A stretch of DNA of 36,435 nt from Burkholderiaceae bacterium (GTDB lineage: Bacteria > Pseudomonadota > Gammaproteobacteria > Burkholderiales > Burkholderiaceae_E): positions 1-36,435 of the forward strand of contig JAHDXY010000004.1 in assembly GCA_023384005.1 (NCBI GenBank). The letters run 5' to 3'. Both the position numbers and the translations under genes were made by a program. The notes beneath the pieces were generated by a model. That model saw only the letters and a program-made list of their open reading frames with translations, was not told the origin of the DNA and made no database searches. Each line of letters starts with the position of its first letter. The stretch's first letter is position 1. Of this stretch, positions 648 to 24,559 are shown in pieces.

Positions 648-1280
648 ATGCCGGCGTCACAGATGACCCAGGCCGAACGCTCGGAGCAGACGCGCCATCA
701 GTTGCTGGCGGCGACGATCGACCTGATCATGGAACGCGGCCTGGCCGGTGCGACCGTGAACGACATCTGCCGGCGCGCGGGCGTCACGACCGGCGCCCTG
801 CAGCACCAGTTCGGCGCCAAGAGCGAGCTGATGGCGGCGACCGTGGCCGAGTTGTTCGCGCCCTTCGCCGAGGCGTTTCCCGCGAGCGACAACCCGGCCG
901 ATACCCAACTCGGCGCGAGGATCGAACGGCTCGTGACCCGCTACGCGAAAATCTACGCCGACCCCCGCTATACCGCGGTGATCGAGATCCTGAGCGCAAC
1001 GCGCCACGACCGCGCGCTCGAAGCGGCGGTGAACCAGTATCGCGACACCCAGGTCGAGAACCTCGCGAATCACCTGCGCACCGAGTTCCCGGACGTGGAC
1101 ATGCCTCTGGAGCGCATGCTCGAGTGCACGCACCTGGTCGTGGACCTGATGCGCGGCGGCGCGATCCGGATGATGTTCGACCGCAGCCGCGAAGCCGAAG
1201 ACGGAATCCTCAAGGGCGCCTGCCAGATCCTGCTCGCCAGGTTCTCCGCCCATCACGACGCGAATCGAGGCCGGAAATGA
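648..1280 (+). CDS. TetR/AcrR family transcriptional regulator
   Basis: A 210-residue DNA-binding repressor of the TetR family. The N-terminal three-helix domain is clear: TRHQLLAATIDLIMERG, then the helix-turn-helix ATVNDICRRAGVTTGALQHQFGAKSEL. The C-terminal ligand/dimer domain is not recognisable to a substrate class. The start at ATG 648 is chosen because GGAG sits five bases upstream; the in-frame ATG at 663 is an alternative, and the frame stays open further upstream without a good ribosome site. The stop overlaps the next gene's ATG (ATGA at 1277-1280), so it is cotranscribed with the M19/TRAP/sarcosine-oxidase genes and is most likely their local substrate-responsive regulator. That assignment is inferred from position only. 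Confidence 0.85.
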   Translation: MPASQMTQAERSEQTRHQLLAATIDLIMERGLAGATVNDICRRAGVTTGALQHQFGAKSELMAATVAELFAPFAEAFPASDNPADTQLGARIERLVTRYAKIYADPRYTAVIEILSATRHDRALEAAVNQYRDTQVENLANHLRTEFPDVDMPLERMLECTHLVVDLMRGGAIRMMFDRSREAEDGILKGACQILLARFSAHHDANRGRK

Positions 1281-2299
1281 CCGACGCTGCGAAACAGGCA
1301 ACCGACGCCGCCAGGCTCCACGCCGACGCCCTGGTCTGGGACCAGACCTTTCCCGCGACCCCCACCTGCGGCTCCTGGACGTCGCACTACGGCGCGCTCG
1401 AGCGGATGAAAGCGAGCGGGTACGACGCGGTGTCGATCACCGTGGCGAGCGACCCCGACGACGCGCTGGGCGCGATCCGCAGGATCTCGATGTGGCGTCG
1501 TTTCATCAACGAGAATTCCGACCGCTACACCTTGCTCGCGAGCGCGCGCGACGCCGAGGCGGCGAAGAAGGCCGGCAAGCTCGCGCTCGGTTTCAGCTTC
1601 CAGGGAACGACCCCGTTCGAGCGCGACATCGGCCTGGTCGAGGTGTTCTACAAACTCGGCGTGCGTCACGCGCTGATCGCCTACAACCAGAAGAACCACG
1701 TTGGCGACGGTTGTCACGAGCGCACCGATTGCGGGCTGTCGCGCTTCGGCGTCGAACTGGTGCGCGAGATGCAACGCGTGGGCATGCTGGTCGACTGCAC
1801 CCACACCGGGCGGCGAACCTCGCTCGACGTGTTCGAAATGGCCAGCGCGCCGGTGATCTATTCGCACTGCAACGCCGCGGCGCTCAAAGCGCACGAGCGC
1901 AACATCGACGACCAGATGGCGAAGGCCTGTGCCGCGACCGGAGGGGTGATCGGCGTCAACGGCATCGGGATCTTCCTGGGCGACAACGACGACTCGACCG
2001 ACGCGCTGTTCGCGCACCTCGATCACTGGGTTGAACTGCTCGGCGCGAAGCACGTCGGGATCGGGCTCGACAGCGTGTCGGACCCGGCGACGCTGACCGC
2101 CACCGTGCAACGGCAGTCGGACAAGTATCCGGCAGGCCAGGGCTACGAAACGACGATGTTGCGCGTGTCCACGCCGGAGCAGATTCCGCAGCTCACCGAA
2201 CGCATGCTTCGCGCGCGATACAGCGAGGCCGACATCCGCGCAGTCCTCGGCGGGAACTGGCTGCGGCTCGCGCGCGAGGTCTGGAAGGAGATCGCGTGA
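1277..2299 (+). CDS. Peptidase family M19 (renal dipeptidase-like) protein with degenerate metal site
   Basis: A 340-residue protein with the M19 membrane-dipeptidase TIM-barrel pattern: LGVRHALIAYNQKN, a VDCTH segment with H176, an IYSHCN segment with H197, an RN pair at 208-209, and a GIGLD strand near the end. M19 enzymes normally hydrolyse dipeptides with a binuclear zinc site built from an N-terminal HxD, a bridging Glu and two later His. Here the HxD position reads WDQTFP (21-26) with no His, and the bridging Glu position is Q109 (SFQGT). H176 and H197 are kept. So it may be a mononuclear or non-peptidase member acting on an amide or lactone. It overlaps the TetR gene upstream and dctQ downstream by four bases each, which ties it to uptake and sarcosine oxidation. 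Fold assignment is firm, activity is open. Confidence 0.8.
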   Translation: MTDAAKQATDAARLHADALVWDQTFPATPTCGSWTSHYGALERMKASGYDAVSITVASDPDDALGAIRRISMWRRFINENSDRYTLLASARDAEAAKKAGKLALGFSFQGTTPFERDIGLVEVFYKLGVRHALIAYNQKNHVGDGCHERTDCGLSRFGVELVREMQRVGMLVDCTHTGRRTSLDVFEMASAPVIYSHCNAAALKAHERNIDDQMAKACAATGGVIGVNGIGIFLGDNDDSTDALFAHLDHWVELLGAKHVGIGLDSVSDPATLTATVQRQSDKYPAGQGYETTMLRVSTPEQIPQLTERMLRARYSEADIRAVLGGNWLRLAREVWKEIA

Positions 2300-2847
2300 G
2301 CGCGCTGCGGCCCCTGGTCGAACACGCCGACGCGTGGTCGCTGCGGCTTGCCCGCGCGATGACCGCCTTGTCCGCGATCGCGGTGGCGTTGATCGTTGTC
2401 GTGCTCGTGTTCGCGAGCCTGCAGCGCTACGTCCTGTCCAGCCCGATCCCGGCCACCGAGGAAATCGCCGGCTACCTGTTCGTGGCGATGTCGTTCCTCG
2501 CGATGGTCGGCGGCATGGTGGAGCGGCGCCACATTCGCGTGCTGATCGTCTGGCGGCTGCTGCCGGTGCGCTTGCAGGCCTGGACGATGCTGGCCGGCCA
2601 CCTGGGGGCGATCGTCGTGCTGGGCATCCTGTTCTGGCAGACCTTCGGCTTCGCCCGATCGAGTTTTCAGTTCGGCGCTCGCAGCTACGTGGCCGACCTT
2701 CTCGAATGGCCCTGGATGATGCTGATCCCGGTGTCGCTCGCCCTGCTCGCGCTGGCGGTGGCGGTGCGTTCGCTGGCCGATCTCGATCGCGCGCTCGACG
2801 GCGAACCCACGCCCGAAGCCACGGCAGCCGACGAAGGCGCGGCCTGA
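2296..2847 (+). CDS. dctQ: TRAP transporter small permease (DctQ family)
   Basis: A 183-residue inner-membrane protein with four hydrophobic segments (about 20-45, 58-75, 92-115 and 138-160) and the DctQ hallmarks FASLQRYVLSSPIPATEEI and the GGMVERRHIRV loop. In tripartite ATP-independent periplasmic transporters this subunit pairs with the large permease and docks the solute-binding protein; transport is driven by a sodium or proton gradient. The GTG start at 2296 overlaps the M19 stop (GTGA) and follows a strong GGAAGGAG at 2283-2290. The acidic C-terminal tail (PTPEATAADEGAA) is outside the conserved region. dctM follows after three bases. Family assignment is confident; the transported solute is not evident from this subunit. 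Confidence 0.92.
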   Translation: MSALRPLVEHADAWSLRLARAMTALSAIAVALIVVVLVFASLQRYVLSSPIPATEEIAGYLFVAMSFLAMVGGMVERRHIRVLIVWRLLPVRLQAWTMLAGHLGAIVVLGILFWQTFGFARSSFQFGARSYVADLLEWPWMMLIPVSLALLALAVAVRSLADLDRALDGEPTPEATAADEGAA

Positions 2848-2850
2848 GCG

Positions 2851-4146
2851 ATGCTCACCGCAACGCTCGTCGCGATCATCGCGTTCGCGCTGCTCACCGG
2901 TTCGATGCTCGGCATCGTGATCGGCGCGACCGGGCTCGCGGTGCTGCATTTCGCCTTCGGCGCAAACTTCAGCGTGCTGGGAAACGCCACCTGGAACGTG
3001 TTCAACAGCTTCACGTTCACCGCGGTGCCAACCTTCATCCTGCTGGGCGAAATCCTCGGTCAGTCGGGTCTGGCCAAGCGCATCTACAGCGCGATCTCGC
3101 CCACCTTCGAGCGCCTCCCGGGCCAGCTGCTGCAAACCAACATCGGCGCGTGCACGGTGTTCAGCGCGATCAGCGGATCTTCCACCGCGACCGCTGCGGT
3201 GGTCGGCGCGATCGCCTACGACGAGCTCAAGTCGCGCGGCTACTCGCGCCGGGCGACCATCGGCACCATCGCCGCGGGCGGCACGCTGGGCATCCTGATT
3301 CCGCCCTCGATCGCTCTGATCATCTACGGCGCCTGGCAGGAAGTCTCGGTGGGCGCGCTGTTCATCGCGGGAATCGTCCCCGGGCTGCTGCTGGCCGGCC
3401 TGTTCATGGTCTACATCGGCATCATGGCGCGCCTGCGCCCCGGAGTCGCGCCGCCGGTGGGCGCGCTGATGCCGCTCGGGCGCGCGCTGGCCAAGTCGGC
3501 CGAAGCCTGGCCCTTCGTCATCCTGGTGTTCGCGATCCTGGGCACGATCTTCCTGGGGCTGGCCACGCCGACCGAGGCGGCGGCGCTGGGCGTCGCGACC
3601 GCGATGGTGCTGGCGATGCTCTATCGCGAACTGAGCCTAGCGCGCGTGTGGACTGCGCTGACGGCGACGGTGCGCACCTTCTCCACCCTGACGCTGGTTC
3701 TGGTGGGCGCGCTGGTTCTGAGCCAGGCCGTCGCGCTGACCGGCTTGCCGCGCCTGCTGATCGGGATGGTCTCCGAGGCCGGCCTGTCGCCGCCAGTGGT
3801 CATCACGCTGATCTTCGCGATGTACCTGGTGCTCGGCTGCTTCTTCGGGCCGATCGAGATGCTGCTGATCACCTTGCCCTTCGTGTTTCCGGTCGTCACC
3901 GGGCTGGGTTTCGACCCGGTGTGGTTCGGCATCGCGCTGGTGATCGTGATCGAGATCGGTCTGCTGACTCCGCCGCTGGGCATCAATCTGTTCGTGGTGA
4001 TGGCCGTCAGTCGCAACGAGGTCTCGCTCGGCGAGGCGGCGATCGCCTGCCTGCCGTACTGGCTGTTGATGCTCGCGCTGCTGGCGGTGATCACCGTCTT
4101 TCCGCAGATCGCGCTGTTCCTGCCGCGCATTTCCGGGTTCGGGTAG
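2851..4146 (+). CDS. dctM: TRAP transporter large permease (DctM family)
   Basis: A 431-residue, almost entirely hydrophobic protein of normal DctM length. Signature stretches are AVPTFILLGEILGQSGL, the SGSSTATAAVVGAIA loop, TLGILIPPSIALIIYGA, the PTEAAALGV segment, and a C-terminal PPLGINLFVV. It forms the ion-coupled translocation channel of the TRAP system together with the preceding DctQ. Only three bases separate it from dctQ. The following dctP is separated by a 58-base gap holding a GC-rich stem-loop, which may let the binding protein be made in different amounts from the permeases. No frameshift or missing segment is visible. Confidence 0.95.
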   Translation: MLTATLVAIIAFALLTGSMLGIVIGATGLAVLHFAFGANFSVLGNATWNVFNSFTFTAVPTFILLGEILGQSGLAKRIYSAISPTFERLPGQLLQTNIGACTVFSAISGSSTATAAVVGAIAYDELKSRGYSRRATIGTIAAGGTLGILIPPSIALIIYGAWQEVSVGALFIAGIVPGLLLAGLFMVYIGIMARLRPGVAPPVGALMPLGRALAKSAEAWPFVILVFAILGTIFLGLATPTEAAALGVATAMVLAMLYRELSLARVWTALTATVRTFSTLTLVLVGALVLSQAVALTGLPRLLIGMVSEAGLSPPVVITLIFAMYLVLGCFFGPIEMLLITLPFVFPVVTGLGFDPVWFGIALVIVIEIGLLTPPLGINLFVVMAVSRNEVSLGEAAIACLPYWLLMLALLAVITVFPQIALFLPRISGFG

Positions 4147-4167
4147 CCGCCTCCAGGCAAAGGCGGC
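4146..4167 (+). other. Intra-operon stem-loop between dctM and dctP
   Basis: GCCGCCT at 4146-4152 pairs perfectly with AGGCGGC at 4161-4167 around an eight-base loop, beginning at the last base of the dctM stop codon. There is no T-run, so it is unlikely to stop transcription fully. Such hairpins commonly protect or separate mRNA of differing abundance in transporter operons, which is an inference here. Confidence 0.55.
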
Positions 4168-4204
4168 GGATTTCGATGGGTTGTTCAATCAAGAGGAGAG
4201 TCGC

Positions 4205-5233
4205 ATGAAACTCAAGTCGTTACTCGCGGTGCTGGCCACCGCGGTCGTGAGCACCGGCCTCGCGCAGGCGGCCGATGTCAACTGGCGTCTGGGCAGCTCG
4301 GTGGGCCCGAAGGACCCCACGACGATCAACCTGCAGGAGCTCGCCAAGCGCGTCGACACGAAATCGGGCGGTCGCTTCAAGATCGAGGTCGTCCCGATCG
4401 AGACGATCGGATTCAAGAACGTCGATTCGTTGCGCGTTCTCAAGCAAGGCGTGCTCGAGGCGATGAACATCGTGCCCTACTACGTGGTGCGCGACGAGCC
4501 GCTGATGGGCGTGTTCGCACCCCACGGCGTGCTGATCGACGCCGAACAGAACCTGAAGATCGTCGACGAGCAGTACAAGATCGGCGCGGAGATCCTGGCA
4601 TCGAGCAAGTGGGGGATCGTCCAGGTCGCACGCTCGCCGTTCGGGGCGCTGCGCGACCTGGTGATCATGTCCAAGGATCCGGTCAATACGCTCGAAGGCC
4701 TGCGCAAGATCAAGTTCCGCCACTTCACCAAGGACGGCCTGCAGGCGTTCAACGCGCTTGGCGTATCGACCCAGGTCGTGCCGTCTTCGGAGCTGTACAT
4801 GGCGCTCAAGACCGGCGTGGTCGACGGCTCGGTCTATGGTCCGACCTACGGGCAGTCGCAGTCGATCTACGAGGTCACCTGCTGCATCAGCTACCTTTCC
4901 GCGTTCTCGATGGCCTACCCCTTCTCGATCGGCGTGAACAAGGATGTCTGGGCGAAAGTGCCACCGAACCTGCAGAAGATCCTGGTCGACGAGTCGAATG
5001 CGATGTGGCGCGAGTCGCTCGAATCCTGGAAACAGGGCGCGGCCGAGAAAACGGCCTACGAGTGGCTCACCACCAAGGGCGGAATGAAGATGCTCGACCC
5101 GGTGCCGCTGGCGGATCGCAAGCTGATCCAGGCCGAGCTGCTCAAGATCTGGCGCGCGCAGTCGGAGAAAATCAGCCCCGTCGCGCTCGCATACTTCGAG
5201 CGCATCAACAAGGCGCTGAACGACGGCAAGTAA
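4205..5233 (+). CDS. dctP: TRAP transporter solute-binding protein (DctP family)
   Basis: A 342-residue periplasmic binding protein. The start at ATG 4205 is set by AGAGGAGA just upstream and gives a classical signal peptide (MKLKSLLAVLATAVVSTGLAQA) with cleavage near residue 22. The mature part shows the DctP pattern: an ELAKRVDTKSGGRFKIEVVP strand-helix, then LRKIKFRH carrying the Arg that usually pairs with a substrate carboxylate, then SELYMALKTGVVDGSVYG. Two adjacent Cys (EVTCCISYL) are unusual for this family. It delivers the solute to DctQM. The downstream sarcosine oxidase suggests an organic acid carrying an N-methylglycine unit, but the substrate cannot be read from the sequence. 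Confidence 0.93.
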   Translation: MKLKSLLAVLATAVVSTGLAQAADVNWRLGSSVGPKDPTTINLQELAKRVDTKSGGRFKIEVVPIETIGFKNVDSLRVLKQGVLEAMNIVPYYVVRDEPLMGVFAPHGVLIDAEQNLKIVDEQYKIGAEILASSKWGIVQVARSPFGALRDLVIMSKDPVNTLEGLRKIKFRHFTKDGLQAFNALGVSTQVVPSSELYMALKTGVVDGSVYGPTYGQSQSIYEVTCCISYLSAFSMAYPFSIGVNKDVWAKVPPNLQKILVDESNAMWRESLESWKQGAAEKTAYEWLTTKGGMKMLDPVPLADRKLIQAELLKIWRAQSEKISPVALAYFERINKALNDGK

Positions 5234-5258
5234 GCGCAGGCCACCGAGGATCGAAACG

Positions 5259-6503
5259 ATGATCGTATTCAGCAACGCACAGGTCTTCGACGGCCTGAAC
5301 GACCGCCTCAGCGCGGCCAACGTCGTGGTCGACGGCGAGCGCATCAAGTCGGTTTCCGATGCGCCGCCGCCGCCCGGCGCCGAGGTGATCGATTGCGGCG
5401 GCCGGGTGCTGATGCCCGGCCTGATCGACGCGCACATTCACGCGTACTTCTACGACATGAACGTCAACCGGCTGCAGCGCCTGCCGGTGACGATGTACGC
5501 GCACCACGCGGCGAACATGCTGCGCGACATGCTCGATCGCGGATTCACCTCGGTGCGCGATACCGGCGGCGCCGACTACGGGCTGTGGCTGGCCATCCAG
5601 AAGGGGCTGATCACCGCCCCGCGTCTTTACTACTGCGAGAAGGCTCTCACCCCGACCGGCGGGCACGCCGACACGCGCCACCATCACGACTACCACGTCC
5701 ACGACGATCACGTCACGATGTGCGGTTGCTGCTTCGTCAATCCGTTGGGCGTCGTGGTCGACGGCGTCGACGCGGTGCGCAGGGTCGTTCGCGAGCAGCT
5801 TCGCCGCGGCGCCTCGTTCATCAAGTTCATGGGCTCGGGCGGGGTGGCCTCGGTGTCCGACCCGCTCGAAGGAATCCAGTTCGGCAAGGACGAGGTTCGC
5901 GCGATCGTCGAGGAAGTGGAGAACCACCTGGTCTACTGCACCGCCCACATCCACCCGGACCGGGCGCTCAAGCGCGCCATCGCGCTCGGGGTGCACTGCA
6001 TCGAACACGGCACGCTGATCGAAGCCGACACCGCGAACATGGCGGCCGACAAGGGGGTGAGCATCGTGCCGACACTGGCGGTGATCGCCGGGCTGGCCGA
6101 GCGCGGCGAGGAGTTCGGCCTGCCGCGCGAATCGCTCGACAAGCTCGACAACATCAAGGACGAGGCGGTCGAGCGGCTGCGTCACATGAAACGCGCGGGC
6201 GTCAGGGTGGGCTTCGGCACCGACCTGATCGGCGCCATCCAGCCGATGCAGTCGACCGAGTTCGCCTTGCGCTCGCCGGTGTTCTCGAACTTCGAGATCC
6301 TCAACCAGGCCACCGGCGTGAACGCAGAGATCATCCGCGCCAAGGGCCAGATCGGCGAGATCTCGCCCGGAGCCTACGCCGACATCCTGGTCGTCGACGG
6401 CAACCCGCTGAAGAAGCTGGAGTTGATGGCCGACGACGGCGCCCACATCCCGATCGTGATGAAGGGCGGCAAGTTCCACCGCAATCGCCTGCCAGCCAAT
6501 TGA
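5259..6503 (+). CDS. Metal-dependent amidohydrolase (COG1228, imidazolonepropionase/prolidase-like)
   Basis: A 414-residue amidohydrolase-superfamily enzyme. Metal ligands are all visible: H59 and H61 in PGLIDAHIHA, K189 in FIKFMGSGGVAS (the carboxylated Lys), H230 in YCTAHIH, H250 in IEHGT, and an Asp in VGFGTDLIG. Known members hydrolyse C-N bonds in cyclic amides or dipeptides (imidazolonepropionase, Xaa-Lys/Arg and Xaa-Pro peptidases). An odd His/Asp/Cys-rich stretch at about 136-158 (HADTRHHHDYHVHDD, then MCGCC) replaces the usual GGHGD loop and might bind extra metal. No signal peptide, so cytoplasmic. A GAGGA ribosome site precedes ATG 5259, and its stop overlaps the TTG start of soxB. 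Inferred role: release of sarcosine from an imported amide, peptide or hydantoin-like compound. Confidence 0.88.
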   Translation: MIVFSNAQVFDGLNDRLSAANVVVDGERIKSVSDAPPPPGAEVIDCGGRVLMPGLIDAHIHAYFYDMNVNRLQRLPVTMYAHHAANMLRDMLDRGFTSVRDTGGADYGLWLAIQKGLITAPRLYYCEKALTPTGGHADTRHHHDYHVHDDHVTMCGCCFVNPLGVVVDGVDAVRRVVREQLRRGASFIKFMGSGGVASVSDPLEGIQFGKDEVRAIVEEVENHLVYCTAHIHPDRALKRAIALGVHCIEHGTLIEADTANMAADKGVSIVPTLAVIAGLAERGEEFGLPRESLDKLDNIKDEAVERLRHMKRAGVRVGFGTDLIGAIQPMQSTEFALRSPVFSNFEILNQATGVNAEIIRAKGQIGEISPGAYADILVVDGNPLKKLELMADDGAHIPIVMKGGKFHRNRLPAN

Positions 6504-7753
6504 CGCGACGTTACTCGGCTTTTTCGCTGTTCAGGGAAGGCCGCGCCGGCCAACGCGGCTGGCGCCCGGCGTGGCGTTCGCCCGAACCTCAACCGGCCTA
6601 CGAGGTGATCGTGATCGGTGGCGGCGGCCATGGACTGGCCACCGCGTACTACCTCGCGAAGACCCACGGCATCAGGCGCGTCGCGCTGCTCGAACGCGGC
6701 TGGATCGGCGGCGGCAACACCGGGCGCAACACCACGGTGATTCGCTCGAACTATTTCTACCCCGAGAGCGCGGCGCTTTACGACCTGTCGGTGCGCCTGT
6801 ACGAAGGCCTGTCGCGCGAGCTGAACTACAACATCATGTTCTCGCAGCGCGGGATGCTGATGCTCGCGCACAGTGAGATCGAGATGGAACTCGCGGCGCG
6901 CAGCGTCAACGCGATGCTGATCAACGGCGTGGACGCCGAACTGCTTGGCCGGGAACAGGTGCGCGCGCTGGCGCCAATCCTGAAATTCGATCGCGACGCG
7001 CGCTTTCCGATTCTCGGCGCGACCAACCAGCGCCGCGGCGGCCCCGCACGACACGACGCGGTCGCCTGGGCCTACGCGCGCGGCGCCGACGCGCTCGGCG
7101 TCGACATCATCCAGAACTGCGAAGTCACCGGTTTCGCGCGCGAGGCCGGCCGGGTGGTGGGCGTCGAAACCACGCGCGGCGAGATCCGCGGCGAACGGAT
7201 CGGCGTCGCGGTGGCCGGGTCTTCGTCGGTGCTGGCCGCGTTGGGCGGATACGAGCTGCCGATCAACACCTACACGCTGCAGGCCTTCGTCAGCGAGCCG
7301 GTGAAGCCGATGATGGACACGGTCGCGCTGTCGCCCGGCACCGGCGTGTACTTCAGTCAATCGGACAAGGGCGAGATGGTGTTCGGCGGCGGGCTCGATC
7401 GAGTGCCCTCGTACGCCCAGCGCGGCAACCCGCCGATGCAGGAAGCCGTGCTCTCGGGGCTGCTGGAAATGGCCCCGGCGCTGGGCCAGCTGCGGCTGAT
7501 GCGGCAGTGGGGCGGCGCGGTCGACGTGACCTCCGATTCATCGCCGATCCTGGGCCCGGTCGGCGTACCCGGGATCTACGTGAATTGCGGCTGGGGCACG
7601 GGCGGCTTCAAGGCGATCCCGGCCGGGGGCACGCTGCTCGCTCACATCCTCGCGACCGGCGAACATCACGAACTGAGCCGCCCGTTCGCGCTGTCGCGTT
7701 TCGCCACCGGCGCGCTGATCGACGAAGGCGCCGCCGCCGGAATCGCACACTGA
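6500..7753 (+). CDS. soxB: Sarcosine oxidase beta subunit
   Basis: A 417-residue FAD/FMN subunit matching heterotetrameric sarcosine oxidase SoxB in length and throughout: RRYSAFSLFR at the N-terminus, the FAD dinucleotide fold YEVIVIGGGGHGLATAYYLA, ERGWIGGGNTGRNTTVIRSN, and the C-terminal NCGWGTGGFKAIPAGG. His185 in ARHDAVAW aligns with the His that carries covalent FMN in characterised enzymes. The start is TTG at 6500, overlapping the amidohydrolase stop (TTGA); the frame extends far upstream but only as a shadow of the amidohydrolase gene. With SoxA, SoxD and SoxG it oxidises sarcosine to glycine, passing the methyl group to tetrahydrofolate and electrons to oxygen. Nine bases separate it from soxD. 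Confidence 0.95.
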   Translation: MTRRYSAFSLFREGRAGQRGWRPAWRSPEPQPAYEVIVIGGGGHGLATAYYLAKTHGIRRVALLERGWIGGGNTGRNTTVIRSNYFYPESAALYDLSVRLYEGLSRELNYNIMFSQRGMLMLAHSEIEMELAARSVNAMLINGVDAELLGREQVRALAPILKFDRDARFPILGATNQRRGGPARHDAVAWAYARGADALGVDIIQNCEVTGFAREAGRVVGVETTRGEIRGERIGVAVAGSSSVLAALGGYELPINTYTLQAFVSEPVKPMMDTVALSPGTGVYFSQSDKGEMVFGGGLDRVPSYAQRGNPPMQEAVLSGLLEMAPALGQLRLMRQWGGAVDVTSDSSPILGPVGVPGIYVNCGWGTGGFKAIPAGGTLLAHILATGEHHELSRPFALSRFATGALIDEGAAAGIAH

Positions 7754-7762
7754 GCACAGGCG

Positions 7763-8029
7763 ATGCAGATCTTCGATTGCCCCTTCTGCGGCGAGCGCAA
7801 CGAGACGGAGTTCCACTTCGTCGCCGAAGCCGGAAAGGTCCGCCCCGAACCGGCGCGCGAGGTGACGCCCGAGCTCTGGGCCTCGTACCTGCACACGAAG
7901 AACAACCCCAGAGGCACGAGCCGCGAGATCTGGCGCCACCTCGGTTGCGGCGAACTGTTCGCGATGCGCCGCGACACGGTGAGCATGGCCGTGATCGCGG
8001 TCGAGTCGCTCGGAGGAAACGAGCGATGA
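7763..8029 (+). CDS. soxD: Sarcosine oxidase delta subunit
   Basis: An 88-residue zinc-binding subunit of the heterotetrameric oxidase. CPFCGERNETEF supplies Cys6 and Cys9; WRHLGC supplies His59 and Cys62. As I recall the family, the last two ligands are normally HxxxC, so the HxxC here looks one residue shorter. The TKNNPRGTSREIW stretch corresponds to the conserved YxRxNPxGxxxExW region. It has a structural role near the FMN/FAD subunit interface. Its stop overlaps the soxA ATG (ATGA at 8026-8029), and a GGAGGAAAC ribosome site for soxA lies inside its 3' end. Confidence 0.93.
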   Translation: MQIFDCPFCGERNETEFHFVAEAGKVRPEPAREVTPELWASYLHTKNNPRGTSREIWRHLGCGELFAMRRDTVSMAVIAVESLGGNER

Positions 8030-10875
8030 GTTCGCGCCGGCTCGACAGCGGCGGCGCGATCGATCGCACTGTCGAGCTTGGTTTTTCCTTCGATGGCAGC
8101 AGGTACACCGGGCATCCGGGCGACACGCTCGCCTCTGCATTGCTCGCCGCCGGCGTGCGCACCGTCGGTCGCAGCGTCAAGTACCACCGCCCGCGCGGCG
8201 TCTGGGGCGCGTGGGTCGAGGAACCCAACGCGATCTTCGACCTGGTGCAAGCCGGCGTGCGCACGCCGAACTGCCGGGCGACCACGACCCCGCTCGCCGC
8301 CGAGGTCCAGGCGTTCAGCGTAATCGCCAGCCCGAGCGCCGAACGCGATCGCCATGCGTGGATCGACCGCTTCGCGCGTTTCATTCCGGCGGCGTTCTAC
8401 TACAAGACCTTCATGTGGCCGAACTGGCACTGGTTCGAGCCGCGGATCCGGGAGATGGCCGGGCTCGGCCGGGCCGATCCGGATTTCCGCCCGGAGGCGA
8501 TCGCGCGTCAACGCCACGCAAAGTGCGAGCTGCTGGTGGTGGGCGCCGGCGTTGCCGGCCTCGCCTGCGCGCGCGCCGCCGCCGAGCGCGGACACGACGT
8601 GCTGCTGGTCGACGACCGCGCGTCGCCCGGCGGCATGCTCGGCGACACCGGCGAAACGGTCGAAGGCGTCGCGGGCGCGCAATGGGCGCGCGACTCGGCC
8701 GCCGCGTTCTCCGCCGCCGGGGGGCGGTATCTCGCGAGCACGACCGCGTTCGGCATCTACGACCACAACCTGGTGCTGTGCAACCAGATCGATCCGCTGC
8801 GCGGGCCCGACAGCTTGTGGCGCGTTCGGGCGAAACGGATCGTGCTCGCCACCGGAGCGATCGAGCGACCGCTGACCTTTCCCGACAACGATCGCCCCGG
8901 TGTGATGTCGGCGCACGCCGCACTCGCCTACCTGAATCGCTACGGCGTGCTGGTCGGCGATCGCATCGTCGTCGCGACCAACAACAGCTCGACCACCGAG
9001 GTGGCCCGATCGCTGATCGCGGCCGGCGCCGAGGTCACGCTGCTCGACAGCAGGGAGGAGCCCGACACCGCACGCGTTCCCGCGCGCGGCAAGTCGCGGG
9101 TTCGCGGACTCGACTGGCGCGACGGCCTGCGCAGCGTGCACACCGATCGCGGCGAATCGATCGACGCCGACGCCCTGCTGGTCTCGGGCGGCTGGACGCC
9201 GAGCGTGCACCTGCATTGCCAGGCCGGCGGCAAGCTCGACTGGCGCGACGACCTGCTCGCCTTCGTGCCGCGTCCCGGCATCGCCCGGATCGATACCGTC
9301 GGTGCCGCGGCGGGCGAGTTCACTGTCGACGAGGCGCTGGCGTCGGGTGCGGGGGCGGGTTCAGGTGCAGGCACCGCGACGCCCGCTTCGCGGCGAGCCT
9401 ACGACGTGCAACCGGCCTGGCCCCGGCCGGGCGCCGAAGGACGCCAGTGGGTCGACTTCCAGAGCGACGTGACGACCGGTGACATCGAACTCGCCGCGCG
9501 CGAAAACTTCGTTTCGATCGAACACCTGAAGCGCTACACCACGCTCGGCATGGCGACCGACCAGGGCAAAACCTCCGGCATCGTCGGCCTGGCGACGATG
9601 GCGGCGATCAGCGGCCGGCCGATCGCTTCGGTGGGTACCACCACCTATAGACCGCCCTTCGTCCCGGTGCCGCTGTCGAGCTTTGCCGGAACACGACGTG
9701 GCGAGTGCTTCGCGCCGATCAAGCGCCTGCCGCTGGAAAGCGCGCATCGCGCCGACGGCGCGGTGTTTCGCGAGTACGGCGGCTGGCTGCGCCCCGCCTA
9801 CTACGGCACCGACGGCGACGGCACCGACAGCGCCGTGGTCGCGATCCAGCGCGAAGCCCGTGCCGCGAGGGAAGGCGTCGCGCTGTTCGACGCTTCGCCG
9901 CTCGGAAAGATCGAGGTCTTCGGCCCCGATGCCGAACGATTCATCGACTTCGTCTACTACAACACGATGGCGACGTTGAAGCCGGGCCGCATCCGCTACG
10001 GCTTCATGCTGAACGAGAGCGGCTCGATCCTCGACGACGGGGTGCTGTGCAGGATCGCCGCGAACCACTTCGTCGTTTCGTGTTCGTCCTCGCACGTCGA
10101 AGCGGTCGCCGCGATGCTCGACACCTGGCGCCAGGACCAGTTCGATGCCCGCCGGATCTTCATCCAGGATTCGACCGCGCAGTGGGCGACGCTGACGCTG
10201 ACCGGGCCGAAATCGAGGCAGTTGCTCGCACGCCTGCATCCCGAACTCGACCTGGACGACGAGTCGTTCGCGCACATGAGTTTCGTCGAACGCGATTCGA
10301 CGCGAATCTCGCGCGTCTCGTTCACCGGCGATCGAAGCTACGAGATCACGGTCGCGTGTTCGCAGGCCGCGACGCTTTGGGCGCGACTGAAAGCGGCCGG
10401 AGCTGAACTCGGCGCCAGCTTGCTGGGCCTCGAGGGCCTGTCGATCCTGCGCGCCGAGAAAGGCCTGATCATCATCGGCAAGGACACCGACGGCCAGACG
10501 ATGCCGCACGATCTCGGGTTCGCCGGGCCGCGCGAGAAGAAGGCCGGCGAGTTCATCGGCAAGCGCGGCCTGTTCACCGAAGAAGCGTCGCGCTCCGACA
10601 GGCACGTTCTGGTGGGCCTGGAAACCGACGGCGAAGCGCTCGCCGCCGGCGCGCACATCGTGCACGGCGACGGTCCGCGGCGAAGCAGCCAGGGATTCGT
10701 CACCTCGAGTTACGTGAGCCCCAATCTCGGGCGGCCGATCGCGCTCGCACTGCTGCGCAATGGCCGCGCGCGCGTCGGCGAAGCGGTATCGGTGTTTCAC
10801 CTGGGAAAGACGCGCGCGGCCAGGGTCGCGCCACCCTGCGCCTTCGATCCGCGAGGAGAGCGCATCAATGCCTGA
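8026..10875 (+). CDS. soxA: Sarcosine oxidase alpha subunit
   Basis: A 949-residue alpha subunit, slightly short for the family. Order of domains: an N-terminal ferredoxin-fold segment without cluster Cys (FDGSRYTGHPGDTLASALLA, VKYHRPRGVWG); a nucleotide-binding domain from about 166 with GAGVAG at 173-178 and ATGAIERPLTFPDNDRPGV; the KRYTTLGMATDQGK segment; and a C-terminal aminomethyltransferase (GCV_T) domain from about 565 that binds tetrahydrofolate and accepts the methyl group as methylene-THF. A Gly/Ala/Ser linker (about 438-455, SGAGAGSGAGTATPAS) interrupts the junction before the GCV_T half and is not typical. ATG 8026 overlaps soxD, and the stop overlaps soxG by eight bases. Confidence 0.94.
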   Translation: MSSRRLDSGGAIDRTVELGFSFDGSRYTGHPGDTLASALLAAGVRTVGRSVKYHRPRGVWGAWVEEPNAIFDLVQAGVRTPNCRATTTPLAAEVQAFSVIASPSAERDRHAWIDRFARFIPAAFYYKTFMWPNWHWFEPRIREMAGLGRADPDFRPEAIARQRHAKCELLVVGAGVAGLACARAAAERGHDVLLVDDRASPGGMLGDTGETVEGVAGAQWARDSAAAFSAAGGRYLASTTAFGIYDHNLVLCNQIDPLRGPDSLWRVRAKRIVLATGAIERPLTFPDNDRPGVMSAHAALAYLNRYGVLVGDRIVVATNNSSTTEVARSLIAAGAEVTLLDSREEPDTARVPARGKSRVRGLDWRDGLRSVHTDRGESIDADALLVSGGWTPSVHLHCQAGGKLDWRDDLLAFVPRPGIARIDTVGAAAGEFTVDEALASGAGAGSGAGTATPASRRAYDVQPAWPRPGAEGRQWVDFQSDVTTGDIELAARENFVSIEHLKRYTTLGMATDQGKTSGIVGLATMAAISGRPIASVGTTTYRPPFVPVPLSSFAGTRRGECFAPIKRLPLESAHRADGAVFREYGGWLRPAYYGTDGDGTDSAVVAIQREARAAREGVALFDASPLGKIEVFGPDAERFIDFVYYNTMATLKPGRIRYGFMLNESGSILDDGVLCRIAANHFVVSCSSSHVEAVAAMLDTWRQDQFDARRIFIQDSTAQWATLTLTGPKSRQLLARLHPELDLDDESFAHMSFVERDSTRISRVSFTGDRSYEITVACSQAATLWARLKAAGAELGASLLGLEGLSILRAEKGLIIIGKDTDGQTMPHDLGFAGPREKKAGEFIGKRGLFTEEASRSDRHVLVGLETDGEALAAGAHIVHGDGPRRSSQGFVTSSYVSPNLGRPIALALLRNGRARVGEAVSVFHLGKTRAARVAPPCAFDPRGERINA

Positions 10876-11425
10876 ACCGCGTCGTCACGGTGCGGCTGCG
10901 GTCGCGAGCCCCGGCTACGACTTCGCCTCGAACTGGTCGCCGCTGCCCGATTGGGATTCGGTCCGAATCGAAGGATCGGATGTCGCTATCGCGACCTGCC
11001 GCCCGGGCGCGATGGTCGTGGTGAACGGCGACCTGAAGGCGGCGTTGGAACTGGCGGGCGTCGAGTCCGCCCCGGTCGGCTGGCCTGAAGTCGCCCGCGG
11101 AGATTGCTATGCGGTGCGCCTCGCGCGCGATCGCGCCCTGATCGTCGGCGGCGCGGCCTTGCCAGCCGGATGGCACGAGAAGGGGTTCGCCGTCTCGCGC
11201 AGCGAAGACGCCACCATCGTGTTCGCGATCTCTGGGCAGGGAACCGGGGATCTCCTCTCGTTCGGCGCCGAGGTCTTCTTCGACCAGGCGTCGGCGTCCG
11301 CGGTGCGCCTGCTCGCAGGACTCGCGGTGATCCTCTATCGATACGGCGACGAGCAGGGCGTGCGGGTGCACGTCGCGCGCCCCAGGGCGGCGGCGTTGCT
11401 CGAATGGCTGCAGATTGCGCGCTGA
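10868..11425 (+). CDS. soxG: Sarcosine oxidase gamma subunit
   Basis: A 185-residue protein in the invariant fourth position of a soxBDAG cluster. GCVT-like beta strands are recognisable, including the late LAGLAVILYRYG and VRVHVARPRAAALLEWL segments that match the family's conserved C-terminus. Its role is structural, packing against the folate domain of SoxA. ATG 10868 follows GAGGAGAG in the soxA 3' end and overlaps soxA by eight bases. It is the last gene of the unit; no glyA, folD or purU gene follows to process glycine or methylene-THF. The N-terminal 20 residues are weakly conserved, so a later start is possible but lacks a ribosome site. Confidence 0.88.
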   Translation: MPEPRRHGAAAVASPGYDFASNWSPLPDWDSVRIEGSDVAIATCRPGAMVVVNGDLKAALELAGVESAPVGWPEVARGDCYAVRLARDRALIVGGAALPAGWHEKGFAVSRSEDATIVFAISGQGTGDLLSFGAEVFFDQASASAVRLLAGLAVILYRYGDEQGVRVHVARPRAAALLEWLQIAR

Positions 11426-11494: not shown

Positions 11495-12700
11495 TCAGAA
11501 CTCGACGCTCAGGGCGATCGACCCGTAAGCGTGGTTCGATCTCTGCTCGCTGAACTCGCGGGTACGAAAGACGCGCATCACCGCCAGCTTCATCCAGCGC
11601 CCGGCAACGCGCGCCTGCGCGCTCAGTCCCACGGCCGCCTGCGCGACCCAGGGCCGGCGGTCGACCCGGTGGCTCGATCGAAACAGGTTTCCGTCGAGCG
11701 AGAAATCGTGCGCGACGAGCTTCGCTTCCAGCGTGCCGAACAGGTGAACGCCTGGGCGCGGTACGGCGAGCGTTGCATCGCCCGGATCTCCCCGAATCGA
11801 CGACGGCGAAGGCGGGCGGTTCTCGGCGCCCGGCCGGATCGGATAGGTGCCGAAGTCGTTCGGCAGGTTCCAGCCGATCCGACCTTCGACACCGAGCGCG
11901 ACCGAAGTCTCGATGTTGCCCAGTCGCAGCCCGATCGAGCGGATCGAATCGGCGGAGAACCCAGGCACGATCACGCCGGCTCCGCGATGGCTCCTGTACT
12001 TGCGGTCGGCCGCCAGTTGCAGCGCGGGTTCGTTGCGCAGCTGGTGGTCCCAGCCGAGGAACCGCTCGCTGCCGATCGCGTCGTGAATCAGGTTCTGTGC
12101 CTGTCGCGCAAGCGACCCCGGTCCGATGACGCCTACGGTGACTTCGCGCGTATCGAGCATCTCGGTATCGCCCGGCGGCTCGCGCGTGCGGCGGTTCCAG
12201 GACATGCCCAGGTACAAAAGGCCGGCATAGGGGCGATCGTCCGGGATCAAGTCGGTTCGCAGCGAATCGCCGGGCGTGTAGATGGCCTGGCCGAATTTGA
12301 CGACGACGTTCTGCGTATGCCTAGGGCTCCCCGGATCCGACCAGAAGCCGGGATTCACGAACTTGATCAGTTCGGCGTGCAATCGCACCGGCGCCGGCAG
12401 GCACCGCATCTGAAGCACGCCGGCGATGTCGTGCGAAGCCGCCACGAACGCCACGCCATTGGTGTAATTTCGATCGGTATTGGCGAACAGGTCGTTCTCC
12501 AGCCGCGCGGTCAAGCCCCTGAAGCGCACGGTCTGCGAGGCGTCGCAATCCTCCGGGGCCTTCGAACCGCCGTCACCGGCTTGCGCGATGGCGGGCGCGA
12601 TCGGCACGATCAGCGCGAGCGCCAGCGCGCTGCCGGCCAGCCAGCGCCTGGACGGCGTCCGGATGGGAGCATGAACAAGGCAGGCGATCGCCCGGGTCAT
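11495..12700 (-). CDS. LpxR-type lipid A 3'-O-deacylase (DUF2219 family outer-membrane protein)
   Basis: A 401-residue exported beta-barrel. From ATG 12700 a long signal region (SRRWLAGSALALALIVPIAPAIAQA) ends near residue 41. The mature N-terminus carries LENDLFANTDRNYTNGV, the LpxR hallmark whose Asn-Asp pair forms part of the catalytic site in Salmonella LpxR. DDRPYAGLLYLG and a final Phe (IALSVEF) also fit the family and outer-membrane barrels. Known members remove the 3'-acyloxyacyl chain from lipid A at the cell surface. A GTG at 12745 would add 15 residues; neither start has a strong ribosome site. It lies 55 bases after the tetraspan gene at 12756 on the same strand, so it may share the FNR-class promoter. 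Deacylase activity is family inference. Confidence 0.82.
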   Translation of the reverse strand: MTRAIACLVHAPIRTPSRRWLAGSALALALIVPIAPAIAQAGDGGSKAPEDCDASQTVRFRGLTARLENDLFANTDRNYTNGVAFVAASHDIAGVLQMRCLPAPVRLHAELIKFVNPGFWSDPGSPRHTQNVVVKFGQAIYTPGDSLRTDLIPDDRPYAGLLYLGMSWNRRTREPPGDTEMLDTREVTVGVIGPGSLARQAQNLIHDAIGSERFLGWDHQLRNEPALQLAADRKYRSHRGAGVIVPGFSADSIRSIGLRLGNIETSVALGVEGRIGWNLPNDFGTYPIRPGAENRPPSPSSIRGDPGDATLAVPRPGVHLFGTLEAKLVAHDFSLDGNLFRSSHRVDRRPWVAQAAVGLSAQARVAGRWMKLAVMRVFRTREFSEQRSNHAYGSIALSVEF

Positions 12701-12755
12701 CGCGGCCGATTCGTACCTGCGAAGTGCGTCGCCGCCCCCAGACACGCGCGCGCGC

Positions 12756-16405: not shown

Positions 16406-16831
16406 TCAGCTTTGAAGCCGCGCTCTGTTGCGCGGGCCGGCGATGTCGGCCAGTGTCGTCGCGTCGAGCTCCCTGAAGTAGGCCTGCAGCGCCGAGTCGA
16501 GCACGCCCTTCAGCCTGCAGGTCGGGGTCAGCGAGCACATGTTGGTGCGCTTGTCGAAGCACTCGGCGAGACGGAAGTCGGTCTCGGTGGCGCGAACCAC
16601 GTCGCCGATCCGGATGCCGGCGGCGTCCTTGAGCAGCTGAACGCCGCCGCCCCGCCCGCGCGTGGTCTTGAGCAGACCCCGGTTGGCGAGATCGTTGACG
16701 ATCTTCATCAGGTGGTTCTTCGACACGCCCAGGCGCTCGGCCATTTCGCCGATCGTGACCTGCTCCTGGGGGCGGGCCGCGCAGTACATCAGCACCCTGA
16801 GCGCGTAGTCGGAGTACTCAGCGAGGCGCAT
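16406..16831 (-). CDS. nsrR: NsrR, Rrf2-family nitric-oxide-sensing [Fe-S] repressor
   Basis: A 141-residue winged-helix regulator. The start MRLAEYSDYALRVLMY at 16831 is the family's own N-terminus and follows AGGAAAA; the frame is open a little further upstream. Recognition helix VSKNHLMKIVNDL and wing RGRGGGVQL are typical of NsrR. Three cluster Cys are present: C91 (AECF), C99 and C105 (CSLTPTC). Known role: the [Fe-S] cluster is destroyed by NO, which releases repression of NO-detoxification and repair genes. It is divergent from nnrS, a standard NsrR target, with a candidate operator between them. IscR-type or SufR-type function is less likely because the Cys spacing and NHLMK helix match NsrR. 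Confidence 0.92.
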   Translation of the reverse strand: MRLAEYSDYALRVLMYCAARPQEQVTIGEMAERLGVSKNHLMKIVNDLANRGLLKTTRGRGGGVQLLKDAAGIRIGDVVRATETDFRLAECFDKRTNMCSLTPTCRLKGVLDSALQAYFRELDATTLADIAGPRNRARLQS

Positions 16832-16853
16832 CGATTTTCCTAAACATGCACAC

Positions 16854-16859
16854 AGTATA
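16854..16859 (-). promoter_or_regulatory. Candidate -10 element of nsrR
   Basis: On the - strand TATACT (five of six to TATAAT) ends 22 bases before the nsrR ATG, leaving a short leader with the AGGAAAA ribosome site. No good -35 is seen at the matching distance, so it may need an activator or be weak. Confidence 0.4.
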
Positions 16860-16888
16860 TTGCTTTTAGCGCGATCCAGCATTAAGAT
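16860..16888 (+). promoter_or_regulatory. nnrS: Candidate nnrS promoter
   Basis: TTGCTT (16860-16865) and TAAGAT (16883-16888) are separated by exactly 17 bases and point toward nnrS, with an expected start near 16895. The -10 hexamer overlaps the left end of the NsrR-type dyad. Both boxes are imperfect matches. Confidence 0.45.
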
Positions 16889-16906
16889 TCACGAACAATA
16901 CATCTT
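16884..16906. promoter_or_regulatory. NsrR-type operator upstream of nnrS
   Basis: A 23-base dyad in the 11-1-11 format of NsrR sites. The right arm read on the - strand is AAGATGTATTG, ten of eleven to the published consensus AAGATGYATTT. The left arm AAGATTCACGA keeps the outer AAGAT. It overlaps the -10 and start region of the candidate nnrS promoter, the expected position for repression. Confidence 0.65.
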
Positions 16907-16954
16907 ATCGTCGAAACAGAGCCGCACAGTCGGCGCTCTCACCCTGGTGTCGTG

Positions 16955-18175
16955 ATGTCCGCGCAACCCGTCTTGCCCGCCGCCCCGTCGAAAGCTTCGC
17001 CCGGCGGCCCGAGTTCCCCCTCGACCCGCGGCTGGCCGTTCCTGCGCCTTGGGTTCCGCCCCTTCTACCTCGGCGCCGCGGTGTTCGCGCTGCTCGCACT
17101 GCCGCTTTGGATCGCGCTGTTCCTCGGGCAGACGACGATCGAACCCGCGGCCCCGGCGATGCTGTGGCACGGCCACGAAATGCTGTTCGGCTTCGCGGCG
17201 GCAGTGATCGCCGGATTCCTGCTCACCGCCGGCAAGGCCTGGACCGGGTTGGCGACGCCGCGCGGCGCGTGGCTGGGCGCGCTGGCGGCGCTGTGGCTCG
17301 CGGCGCGCGTCGCCGCGGTCACCGGACCCTATGCGCTGTACGCGGTGCTCGACCTCGTGCTGCTTCCGGCGGTGGCCGCCGTGCTGGTCGCCGTGCTGCT
17401 GCGCGCGGGCAACCGCCGCAACCTGCCGCTGGCATCGATCCTGGTCCTGCTGTCGATCGCCAACCTGGCGTTTCACCTCGCGGTGATCGGCGCGATCGAC
17501 CTGCCCGCACTCGGCGCCCTGCACGCCGCGCTCGCGCTGATCGTGATGATCGAGTGCGTGATGGCCGCGCGCGTGGTGCCGGCGTTCACGATGAGCGCGA
17601 CCCCCGGCCTGAGGCTGCGCATCTCCGCCCGGCTCGGCGTGGCGACGATCGCTGCCAGCGCGCTCGCGCTCGCGCTGTGGGTGTTCGCGCCACCCGGAGC
17701 GCTCACGCTCGCGGCGTTCGCGCTGGCGAGCGCGCTGCACGTCTGGCGCCAGTGGCAGTGGCAGCCCTGGGTGACGCGCACGCGGCCGATCCTGTGGATC
17801 CTGCACGCCGCCTACGCCTGGATCGCCGTCGGCTTCGCGCTGCTCGCGCTGGCTCAGACCGGCTGGATCGGCGAGTCGGCCGGATTGCACGCGCTGGCCG
17901 TCGGCGCGACCGGCGGGCTGATCATCGGAATGATCACGCGCACGGCGCGCGGTCACACCGGCAGGCCGCTGGCGGTATCGCGCGCCGAGGTGCTGGCCTA
18001 TGCGCTGGTGATGGCCGCCGCGACGCTGCGCGTGCTGGTGCCGCTGGTGGCGCCGCAGTGGCTGGTGCCGGCACTGGTGGCCGCGACGCTCGCGTGGTGC
18101 GCGGCCTTCGCGATCTACCTCTTCGTCTACACGCCCTGGCTGTTGAAGACGCGCTTCGACGGCAAGGACGGATGA
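16955..18175 (+). CDS. nnrS: NnrS family heme/copper membrane protein
   Basis: A 406-residue protein with about twelve membrane helices. WPFLRLGFRPFYLGAAVFA at the N-terminus, MLWHGHEMLFGFAAAVIAGFLLTA, and GLIIGMITRTARGHTGRPL are the NnrS signature stretches; the WHGHEM His pair is the presumed metal-binding site. NnrS proteins are induced by NO and protect against nitrosative stress, including damage to iron-sulfur enzymes. A GTG at 16952 is an alternative start; neither has a strong ribosome site. Upstream lies an NsrR-type operator shared with divergent nsrR. Downstream, a 125-base gap with two GC-rich hairpins leads to the DUF2249 gene. Confidence 0.95.
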   Translation: MSAQPVLPAAPSKASPGGPSSPSTRGWPFLRLGFRPFYLGAAVFALLALPLWIALFLGQTTIEPAAPAMLWHGHEMLFGFAAAVIAGFLLTAGKAWTGLATPRGAWLGALAALWLAARVAAVTGPYALYAVLDLVLLPAVAAVLVAVLLRAGNRRNLPLASILVLLSIANLAFHLAVIGAIDLPALGALHAALALIVMIECVMAARVVPAFTMSATPGLRLRISARLGVATIAASALALALWVFAPPGALTLAAFALASALHVWRQWQWQPWVTRTRPILWILHAAYAWIAVGFALLALAQTGWIGESAGLHALAVGATGGLIIGMITRTARGHTGRPLAVSRAEVLAYALVMAAATLRVLVPLVAPQWLVPALVAATLAWCAAFAIYLFVYTPWLLKTRFDGKDG

Positions 18176-18222
18176 CGCCGGCGGTGATCGGCGACGCCAC
18201 CGGCACGATGATTTCCCTCCCG

Positions 18223-18265
18223 CCCGCGCCACGGCGCGGGTCTGCTTCCACCCGCAGTCCGCGGG
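18223..18265 (+). terminator. Twin GC-rich hairpins after nnrS
   Basis: CCCGCGCC (18223-18230) pairs with GGCGCGGG (18233-18240), and CCCGC (18251-18255) pairs with GCGGG (18261-18265). The first is followed by a pyrimidine-rich stretch but no true T-run. They may attenuate or stabilise the transcript before the DUF2249 gene. Nothing else is seen in the 18176-18300 gap. Confidence 0.4.
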
Positions 18266-18300
18266 CTCACTTCAACCAGCTGTCAGGACAAGGACGATTC

Positions 18301-18600
18301 ATGACTGCCACCGTTACCTCCACGCTCGACGTTCGCCAGATCGCACCGCGCGAGCGTCACTCGACCATCTTCGCGTGCTTCGACTCGCTGCAACCCGGGC
18401 AGGCGATGCGACTGGTCAACGACCACGACCCGCGGCCGTTGCGCTACCAGCTCGACGAGCGCTCGCCAGGGCAGTTCGAATGGGCCTATCTCGAGGCGGG
18501 TCCGGAACTCTGGCGCGTGCAGATCGACAAGCTCGAAGCAAGCGCCGCGAAGAAGGCGGGCGGCGACTCGTGCTGCTCTGGAGGAGCCTGCGCGGGCTGA
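18301..18600 (+). CDS. DUF2249 domain protein with C-terminal Cys cluster
   Basis: A 99-residue protein whose core (TLDVRQIAPRERHSTIFACFDSL, LVNDHDPRPLRYQL, WAYLEAGPELWRVQI) is the DUF2249 domain. The family is small, cytoplasmic, often found beside NnrS, Ric/YtfE-type di-iron repair proteins or hemerythrin domains, and has no established biochemistry. After the domain comes a short tail GGDSCCSGGACAG with three Cys in a CCxxxxC arrangement that looks able to bind a metal or cluster; this is not part of the domain. The ATG 18301 start is supported by AGGACGA upstream. Being cotranscribed with nnrS suggests an NO-stress role. A 57-base gap with a strong stem separates it from convergent sufT. 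Confidence 0.88.
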   Translation: MTATVTSTLDVRQIAPRERHSTIFACFDSLQPGQAMRLVNDHDPRPLRYQLDERSPGQFEWAYLEAGPELWRVQIDKLEASAAKKAGGDSCCSGGACAG

Positions 18601-18601
18601 G

Positions 18602-18628
18602 CCGGAGCCGGCGCGCGGCCGGCTCCGG
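18602..18628. terminator. Strong bidirectional hairpin between DUF2249 gene and sufT
   Basis: CCGGAGCCGGC (18602-18612) and GCCGGCTCCGG (18618-18628) form a perfect 11-base stem with a five-base loop, starting one base after the DUF2249 stop and lying between two convergent genes. There is no T-tract, so any termination would be by a non-canonical intrinsic or Rho-assisted route. Confidence 0.65.
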
Positions 18629-18657
18629 TCGATCCCGCGCCTCTCCGGCGCCGGATC

Positions 18658-22310: not shown

Positions 22311-22314
22311 GGCC

Positions 22315-23085: not shown

Positions 23086-23118
23086 GCTTGTTCCTTTGCG
23101 ATGTCCAGGTTCGCGCGA

Positions 23119-24559
<1,441 letters not shown>

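Follow-up and report, generated by a model that had tools for sequence, protein, structure and literature searches.

What compound would a bacterium process with an operon that joins an importer, two hydrolases and a sarcosine oxidase-like enzyme? The question is raised by one end of a 36,435-nucleotide stretch of DNA (the window; positions 1 to 36,435 of contig JAHDXY010000004.1, assembly GCA_023384005.1) from a Burkholderiaceae bacterium, whose fragmented genome is 90.63% complete in 507 contigs. Ten co-directional genes run here from position 648 to 11425 on the forward strand, in the order tetR, M19, dctQ, dctM, dctP, amidohydrolase (of the COG1228 type), soxB, soxD, soxA and soxG. Our answer, a tentative one, is that the unit may import an N-acylated N-methyl amino acid, hydrolyze it with the amidohydrolase, and oxidatively demethylate the product with SoxBDAG. 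The gene run is real and its parts are ordinary, while their combination is new and recurred in no other locus examined; searches of open-licensed PMC articles listed none with a title or abstract covering this gene set. The genes of the unit are as follows.

648-1280, forward strand: TetR-family regulator, the first gene of the unit (PF00440 TetR_N, 4.5e-12)
1277-2299, forward strand: M19 protein of 340 amino acids (PF01244 Peptidase_M19, 7.4e-79; best PDB match 2i5g)
2296-2847, forward strand: TRAP small permease DctQ (PF04290, 2.8e-22)
2851-4146, forward strand: TRAP large permease DctM (PF06808, 2.2e-83; TIGR00786 above cut-off)
4205-5233, forward strand: TRAP solute-binding protein DctP, with Arg172 (PF03480, 5.9e-29; NF037995 above cut-off)
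5259-6503, forward strand: COG1228-type amidohydrolase, prolidase-like, with His232 for Tyr (PF01979 Amidohydro_1, 4e-40; PDB entry 3mkv, 4.4e-106)
6500-7753, forward strand: SoxB, with a TTG start and His185 (DAO; TIGR01373, 661.9 bits against a cut-off of 529)
7763-8029, forward strand: SoxD (PF04267, 3.4e-24; TIGR01374, 85.8 of 116.5 bits, below cut-off)
8026-10875, forward strand: SoxA, with a folate-binding GCV_T domain (Fer2_4; PF17806 SO_alpha_A3, 1.1e-31; PF01571, 2.5e-60; TIGR01372, 1106 of 1164 bits)
10868-11425, forward strand: SoxG (no hidden Markov model match; AlphaFold model matches 2gag_C and 1vrq_C)

The spacings between these genes are, in order, -4, -4, +3, +58, +25, -4, +9, -4 and -8 bases, so that neighboring genes overlap by 4-8 bases at five junctions and are at most 58 bases apart at the other four. 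The first-pass annotation had described just such a same-strand run, with 4-8-base overlaps, short gaps and coordinates close to ours. The stop codon of the amidohydrolase gene overlaps the TTG start of soxB by four bases, and this overlap, together with the single-strand run, argues for co-expression of the amidohydrolase with sox; the genes of the operon as a whole are probably co-expressed. Pfam families were assigned to nine of the ten gene products, with SoxG the exception, and searches for promoters and terminators gave no signal above shuffled sequence.

How could these parts work together? We propose that the operon is catabolic and probably controlled by the TetR regulator it encodes. 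Its TRAP system would import a small carboxylate in which the nitrogen of an N-methylated (or differently N-alkylated) amino acid is part of an amide, with N-acyl-sarcosine, an Xaa-sarcosine dipeptide and N-carbamoylsarcosine as candidate substrates. In the cytoplasm, the prolidase-like amidohydrolase would cut the tertiary amide, SoxBDAG would oxidize the released secondary amino acid and pass the methyl carbon to tetrahydrofolate, and the M19 protein would most likely act as an accessory hydrolase on related substrates. In this scheme, we infer the substrate, the order of steps and the role of M19. Two sets of clues bear on the substrate. The TRAP clade, the amidohydrolase family and the amidohydrolase-soxB overlap suggest an amide; N-methyl amino acids are suggested by SoxBDAG and, by way of the dgc clusters discussed below, by M19. 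Both sets would be satisfied by an N-methyl amino acid held in an amide that bears a carboxylate. We also count in favor of the scheme the conserved residues of the amidohydrolase, SoxB and DctP, the TRAP-M19-oxidoreductase cluster of Azospirillum brasilense and the L075 neighborhood, all described below.

The transporter is encoded in full, with DctP, DctQ and DctM together and a carboxylate-type arginine in DctP. This residue, Arg172, is invariant in all six aligned rows and aligns with an arginine of 4nn3, which suggests that it is the equivalent of SiaP Arg-147. According to a passage of PMC4646407, 96.8% of the DctP family keep this arginine, which selects carboxylates, and so neutral substrates such as creatinine, N-methylhydantoin (both named as candidates in the first-pass annotation) and diketopiperazines would fit poorly. 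None of 60 relatives matched the window DctP (predicted model pLDDT 65) at E 1e-28. The protein shares 26-35% identity with eight members of its own DctP clade (L189-L196 in our locus numbering), five of them near hydrolases, compared with 22% to the P. denitrificans protein and 15-16% to two Sox-linked DctPs. Amide or cyclic-amide hydrolases stand near related TRAP genes in 7 of 12 loci versus 2 of 20 control DctM loci (L206 and L218; Fisher p 0.006), with a hydrolase panel built partly from the target loci and therefore favoring them. The 12 targets are all five DctP matches plus 7 of 15 plasmid records, one per genus; the controls were hand-picked as about every seventh row among the matches listed, with flanks of about 7 kb on each side (at most 9 kb for targets) and with L202, L206 and L220 cut by contig ends. 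Among the targets, M19 and a flavin adenine dinucleotide (FAD) oxidoreductase are near in L189, M24 in L190 and an amidase in L200; hydantoinase B genes adjoin in L193-L195, and in P. denitrificans (L197) hydA/dihydropyrimidinase, a racemase and an amidohydrolase lie together with TRAP. None of these hydrolase families was near TRAP in L191, L192, L196, L198 or L199. As the HyuA model came from three rows, one probably HyuB, the TRAP calls rest on HyuB and on Pfam and NCBIfam names.

The locus on A. brasilense p3 (L189) reads dctPQM-M19-FAD oxidoreductase, with 47% identity to the window in dctM and 35% in M19. It resembles the window operon in its related TRAP and M19 genes, but its oxidoreductase is a single-subunit enzyme that comes closest to D-amino-acid dehydrogenase models without reaching their cut-offs; eutBC follow it, and no amidohydrolase of this type is present. 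In L197, on P. denitrificans PD1222 plasmid 1, an unlisted open frame at 11791-12174 matches part of M19 (3e-33); it lies between amidohydrolase and Lrp genes, downstream of the TRAP and hydantoinase/racemase cluster.

The amidohydrolase has as its nearest PDB entries 3mkv and 3feq (4e-98), which we take to be the COG1228 prolidases Sgx9260b and Sgx9260c, acting on Xaa-Pro and N-acyl-proline and cutting tertiary amides of proline. It shares with them the sequence family, the complete set of binuclear metal ligands (His59, His61, Lys189, His230, His250 and Asp322) and the GGH histidine. N-acyl-sarcosine can be viewed as the open-chain counterpart of N-acyl-proline, so prolidase-like chemistry would fit by analogy. 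Position 232 differs, being His where the prolidases have what is presumably Tyr-231, which we take to bind the proline carboxylate. Naming the enzyme a prolidase was considered and rejected, since this Tyr and the beta-7 loop residues differ. The three His232 proteins (window, L064 and L075) group together in the tree with weak support (64). Among 80 of the 364 confirmed relatives from named genomes, the nearest, L064, is 50% identical, and a closer one may exist.

Within the fetched flanks of 93 amidohydrolase loci, some on short contigs, HyuA or HyuB is near in 10, DctM in 9, DAO in 8, M24 in 3, and M19 and amidase in 1 each. No soxBDAG was found in any of the 93, the only SoxB/SoxA-like matches being of 23-29% at L071, L081 and L113. 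The loci with HyuA or HyuB (L071, L077, L079, L095, L099, L127, L133, L135, L136 and L143) look as though a single route combined the opening of rings with amide cleavage, and in L127 TRAP is present too. In L075, M19, the amidohydrolase and an NCS1-family permease, whose sole PDB match is a cytosine permease, stand side by side. M19-amidohydrolase pairing was set aside as evidence at this frequency and kept as a hint only, because L075 carries another His232 amidohydrolase.

Is SoxBDAG a sarcosine oxidase? The genes for the B, D, A and G subunits of a heterotetrameric enzyme are encoded together, and the order B-D-A-G, the GCV_T domain and the SoxG fold are all as in TSOX, the solved sarcosine oxidase (2gag, 1vrq). 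SoxG has no Pfam or NCBIfam match at E 0.001, while its AlphaFold model (pLDDT 88) finds its best fold matches in the gamma chains 2gag_C and 1vrq_C, and plasmid proteins annotated SoxG align with it; the protein is thus predicted to fold like a sarcosine oxidase gamma subunit. In SoxB, His185 aligns with the TSOX histidine that presumably forms the covalent link to flavin mononucleotide (FMN), and the aligned Arg and Lys, which we take to line the substrate pocket, are also kept. Of the NCBI sarcosine oxidase cut-offs, that for SoxB is passed and those for SoxA and SoxD are not. A tree of 28 SoxB rows separates 5 canonical TSOX rows from 23 others, the window included (support 100/100), with W101Y, T373I and G375A as fixed differences between the two sets. 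The window SoxB falls inside a 19-row group (97/98), where Gly takes the place of His282 in every row or in every row but one. By these alignments and trees, the window SoxBDAG is a distinct, non-canonical clade. Of more general interest, its sequence relatives make up a well-separated clade carrying the annotation sarcosine oxidase, a substrate assignment that is putative. The heterotetrameric sarcosine oxidase named in the first-pass annotation therefore stands as to its four subunits and FMN histidine, though it lies outside the canonical clade, and sarcosine as its substrate is an assumption that is not safe. TSOX operons are arranged glyA-soxBDAG-purU in the portion of PMC3691474 consulted; neither glyA nor purU turned up among the window proteins scanned.

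With at most two candidates scored per genome, a SoxA match at E 1e-160 is present in 91 of 398 genomes of the phylum, the window's own genome counted; the best 12 matches besides the window share 51-58% identity, and each of those 12 genomes holds a second soxA copy at 41-45%. Among 337 genomes sampled from a class to which one close relative belongs, 6 match at E 1e-230, and three of those 6 had been found before. In its own family, 19 of 74 genomes have a match at E 1e-60, the best-scoring other being 44% identical and shorter pieces at most 48%, and the host genome has a single copy. The closest matches sit in genomes of another class, and the window Sox clade was probably gained by transfer. 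Loci L155-L166, L172-L174, L177-L179 and L184-L186 hold this second, non-canonical SoxBDAG clade, alphaproteobacterial in the named cases and annotated sarcosine oxidase; many of them also hold genes for MTTB-type methyltransferases and dimethylglycine-dehydrogenase-like proteins. The soxA gene is split into two annotated genes in L172 and L174 (Roseovarius W115 and Methylovirgula 4M-Z18 plasmids).

The M19 protein had been called degenerate, and rightly so, as its first metal motif, HxD, is gone, the bridging Glu is Gln109 and an active-site His is Tyr136, with half of the binuclear metal site missing. For comparison, we take the M19 dipeptidase site, in human numbering, to be His20, Asp22, Glu125, His198, His219 and Asp288. 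A decayed gene was considered and rejected, because 13 of 13 aligned rows share His176, His197, Arg208 and Asp265 and the same motif and Glu losses recur in 7 of 20 other rows (2i5g, L154, L147, L153, L170, L171 and L152), the other 13 retaining the Glu. The seven metal-poor rows do not form one clade. Three proteins, namely 2i5g, L154 and the A. brasilense protein, do so (100/100), with the window protein outside on a long branch. Among other M19 neighbors, HyuAB adjoins at L146, and dctM-dctP are near at L152. At L154, M19 lies among DUF3483, FMN-oxidoreductase, DUF5943 and Rieske family genes, about 12 kb from a soxA, an arrangement we read as dgcAB-gbcA. A predicted dipeptidase, pepD, precedes dgcAB in V. 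natriegens and takes the same place in P. aeruginosa, according to a passage of PMC12093977, and a portion of PMC8079746 lists "Membrane dipeptidase, dgc operon"; between them the two papers cover Pseudomonas and Vibrio. Neither passage names M19, and the equivalence of their dipeptidase with M19 is one that we draw. On these passages, a link between such a gene and N-methylglycine breakdown is already known; the published dipeptidase comes there without an amide substrate, which we count as weakening the first-pass proposal. The L154-type protein (2i5g type) resembles the window M19 in family, in neighboring N-methylglycine demethylation genes and in its incomplete metal site, but the window protein is outside the 2i5g clade and its operon lacks dgcAB.

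Could the transporter and SoxBDAG do without hydrolysis? In this main rival to an amide substrate, TRAP would import an N-methylated amino acid or betaine that SoxBDAG demethylates, with both hydrolases serving another use or being passengers; we consider it somewhat unlikely. Its standing comes from TRAP with Sox and without hydrolases appearing as a real pattern. On the Roseovarius W115 plasmid, dctP-dctQ-dctM lie directly beside soxB-soxD-soxA (split)-soxG-tetR with no hydrolases, three Shinella plasmid loci read tetR-soxBDAG plus a solute-binding gene, and in the 12 nearest Sox loci (L155-L166) dctM falls within the stretch in three, with TRAP genes near Sox in L161 and L162. Eight of these 12 hold a dimethylglycine-dehydrogenase-like DAO+GCV_T fusion (by the Pfam domains of one), two more a fragment of it, and six an MTTB gene, with M19 or the amidohydrolase in none. 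Ten further non-canonical Sox loci (L172-L174, L177-L179 and L184-L187) lack both hydrolases as well. The M19 of L154 and, as far as the passages of PMC12093977 and PMC8079746 go, the dipeptidase published for such clusters also favor direct uptake. Against it, the window proteins scanned include no MTTB, GCV_T-fused DAO, Rieske, dgc-type, gbcAB, dgcAB or DMGDH gene, and hence no glycine betaine demethylation cluster, the window DctP is closer to its own hydrolase-associated clade than to Sox-linked DctPs, and the amidohydrolase and soxB genes overlap.

An origin of the substrate in hydantoin or creatinine metabolism, which we find rather unlikely, would have N-methylhydantoin or N-carbamoylsarcosine imported, its ring opened or carbamoyl group removed by the amidohydrolase, M19 or both, and sarcosine oxidized. 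The HyuB genes adjoining TRAP in L193-L195, HyuA/HyuB near amidohydrolase relatives and beside M19 in L146, the L075 pairing with an NCS1-family permease and the P. denitrificans cluster agree with this, but oxoprolinase and caprolactamase are also of the HyuAB family, so such neighbors do not single out hydantoins. The operon has no hydantoinase, and the carboxylate-type Arg of DctP speaks against a neutral hydantoin. The creatinine route had been called absent. The window proteins scanned include no member of a creatininase family, and no genome search was aimed at creatinase, glyA or folate genes; elsewhere, the genome encodes two creatininase-family and seven hydantoinase-B proteins, which lend a hydantoin route some plausibility. 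Least probable, and quite improbable in our view, is a chimera in which a tetR-M19-TRAP-amidohydrolase module for peptides or amides was joined to a horizontally gained sox module and the two work independently. The foreign affinities of SoxA, its low identity within its own family and the unmatched DctP are in line with such a junction, while the four-base overlap and single-strand run argue for co-expression.

Import and cleavage of an N-acylated N-methyl amino acid must itself face several results that weigh against it, beginning with the Sox neighborhoods just described (fusion, MTTB and missing hydrolases) and the bias of the hydrolase panel. FAD oxidases are less clearly enriched near TRAP (4 of 12 targets versus 3 of 20 controls, with weak scores). 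At position 232, the 99 other aligned amidohydrolase rows have Tyr in 96, His in 2 (L064 and L075) and Ser in 1, and the loop that follows reads AVIAGL in place of the VTYDAL of the prolidases. The neighbors of L064 are unrelated, and one M19 gene in 93 amidohydrolase loci is about chance by our guess. None of the 93 amidohydrolase loci, the 12 nearest Sox loci or the 10 further non-canonical ones carries all the modules; pairs of modules recur elsewhere in the loci examined, the whole set does not. The first-pass annotation had held that a neighborhood unique to this genome would refute its proposal, and so far this is the case for the whole set. Its sequence of import, hydrolysis and demethylation keeps on its side the amidohydrolase-soxB overlap, the prolidase-like amidohydrolase, the hydrolases near TRAP relatives and the HyuA/HyuB or DctM genes near amidohydrolase relatives, with sarcosine assumed and the set unique on the other; partly supported and slightly narrowed, the idea is plausible.

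A bolder form of the same proposal, which we judge unlikely, sees the unit as dedicated to N-acylated N-methyl amino acids of natural or synthetic origin, with a new amidohydrolase subtype (His232 and its VI loop), a non-canonical SoxBDAG clade whose specific substrate is an N-methyl amino acid in place of, or in addition to, sarcosine, and the metal-poor M19 as second hydrolase. Should our proposal hold, the role of SoxBDAG would extend from the last steps of betaine and creatine breakdown to that of N-methylated amides, and the substrate of a whole clade now labeled sarcosine oxidase would have to be tested again. Three orphan groups would also gain substrates: this TRAP clade, the His232 amidohydrolases and the metal-poor M19 proteins.

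At its borders, the operon is preceded by the end of a thiamine-pyrophosphate enzyme gene at the contig edge. The TetR regulator was considered as an orthologue of the Sox-clade TetR and rejected, since none of the 12 nearest Sox loci matches it at E 1e-5; the Shinella TetR, by contrast, matches 10 of these 12. Downstream, an LpxR-family outer membrane protein gene (11495-12745, minus strand; PF09982, 1.5e-84) points at the operon end, and positions 16409-24630 of the window hold an Rrf2-family regulator, NnrS and a SUF-like set (two SUFBD_core, an ABC ATPase, a class V aminotransferase and NifU_N). A further Sox variant occurs on a Paracoccus seriniphilus plasmid (L187, 10849-19246), where a mandelate-racemase-like gene, soxBDAG, glycine C-acetyltransferase and threonine dehydrogenase stand in a row.

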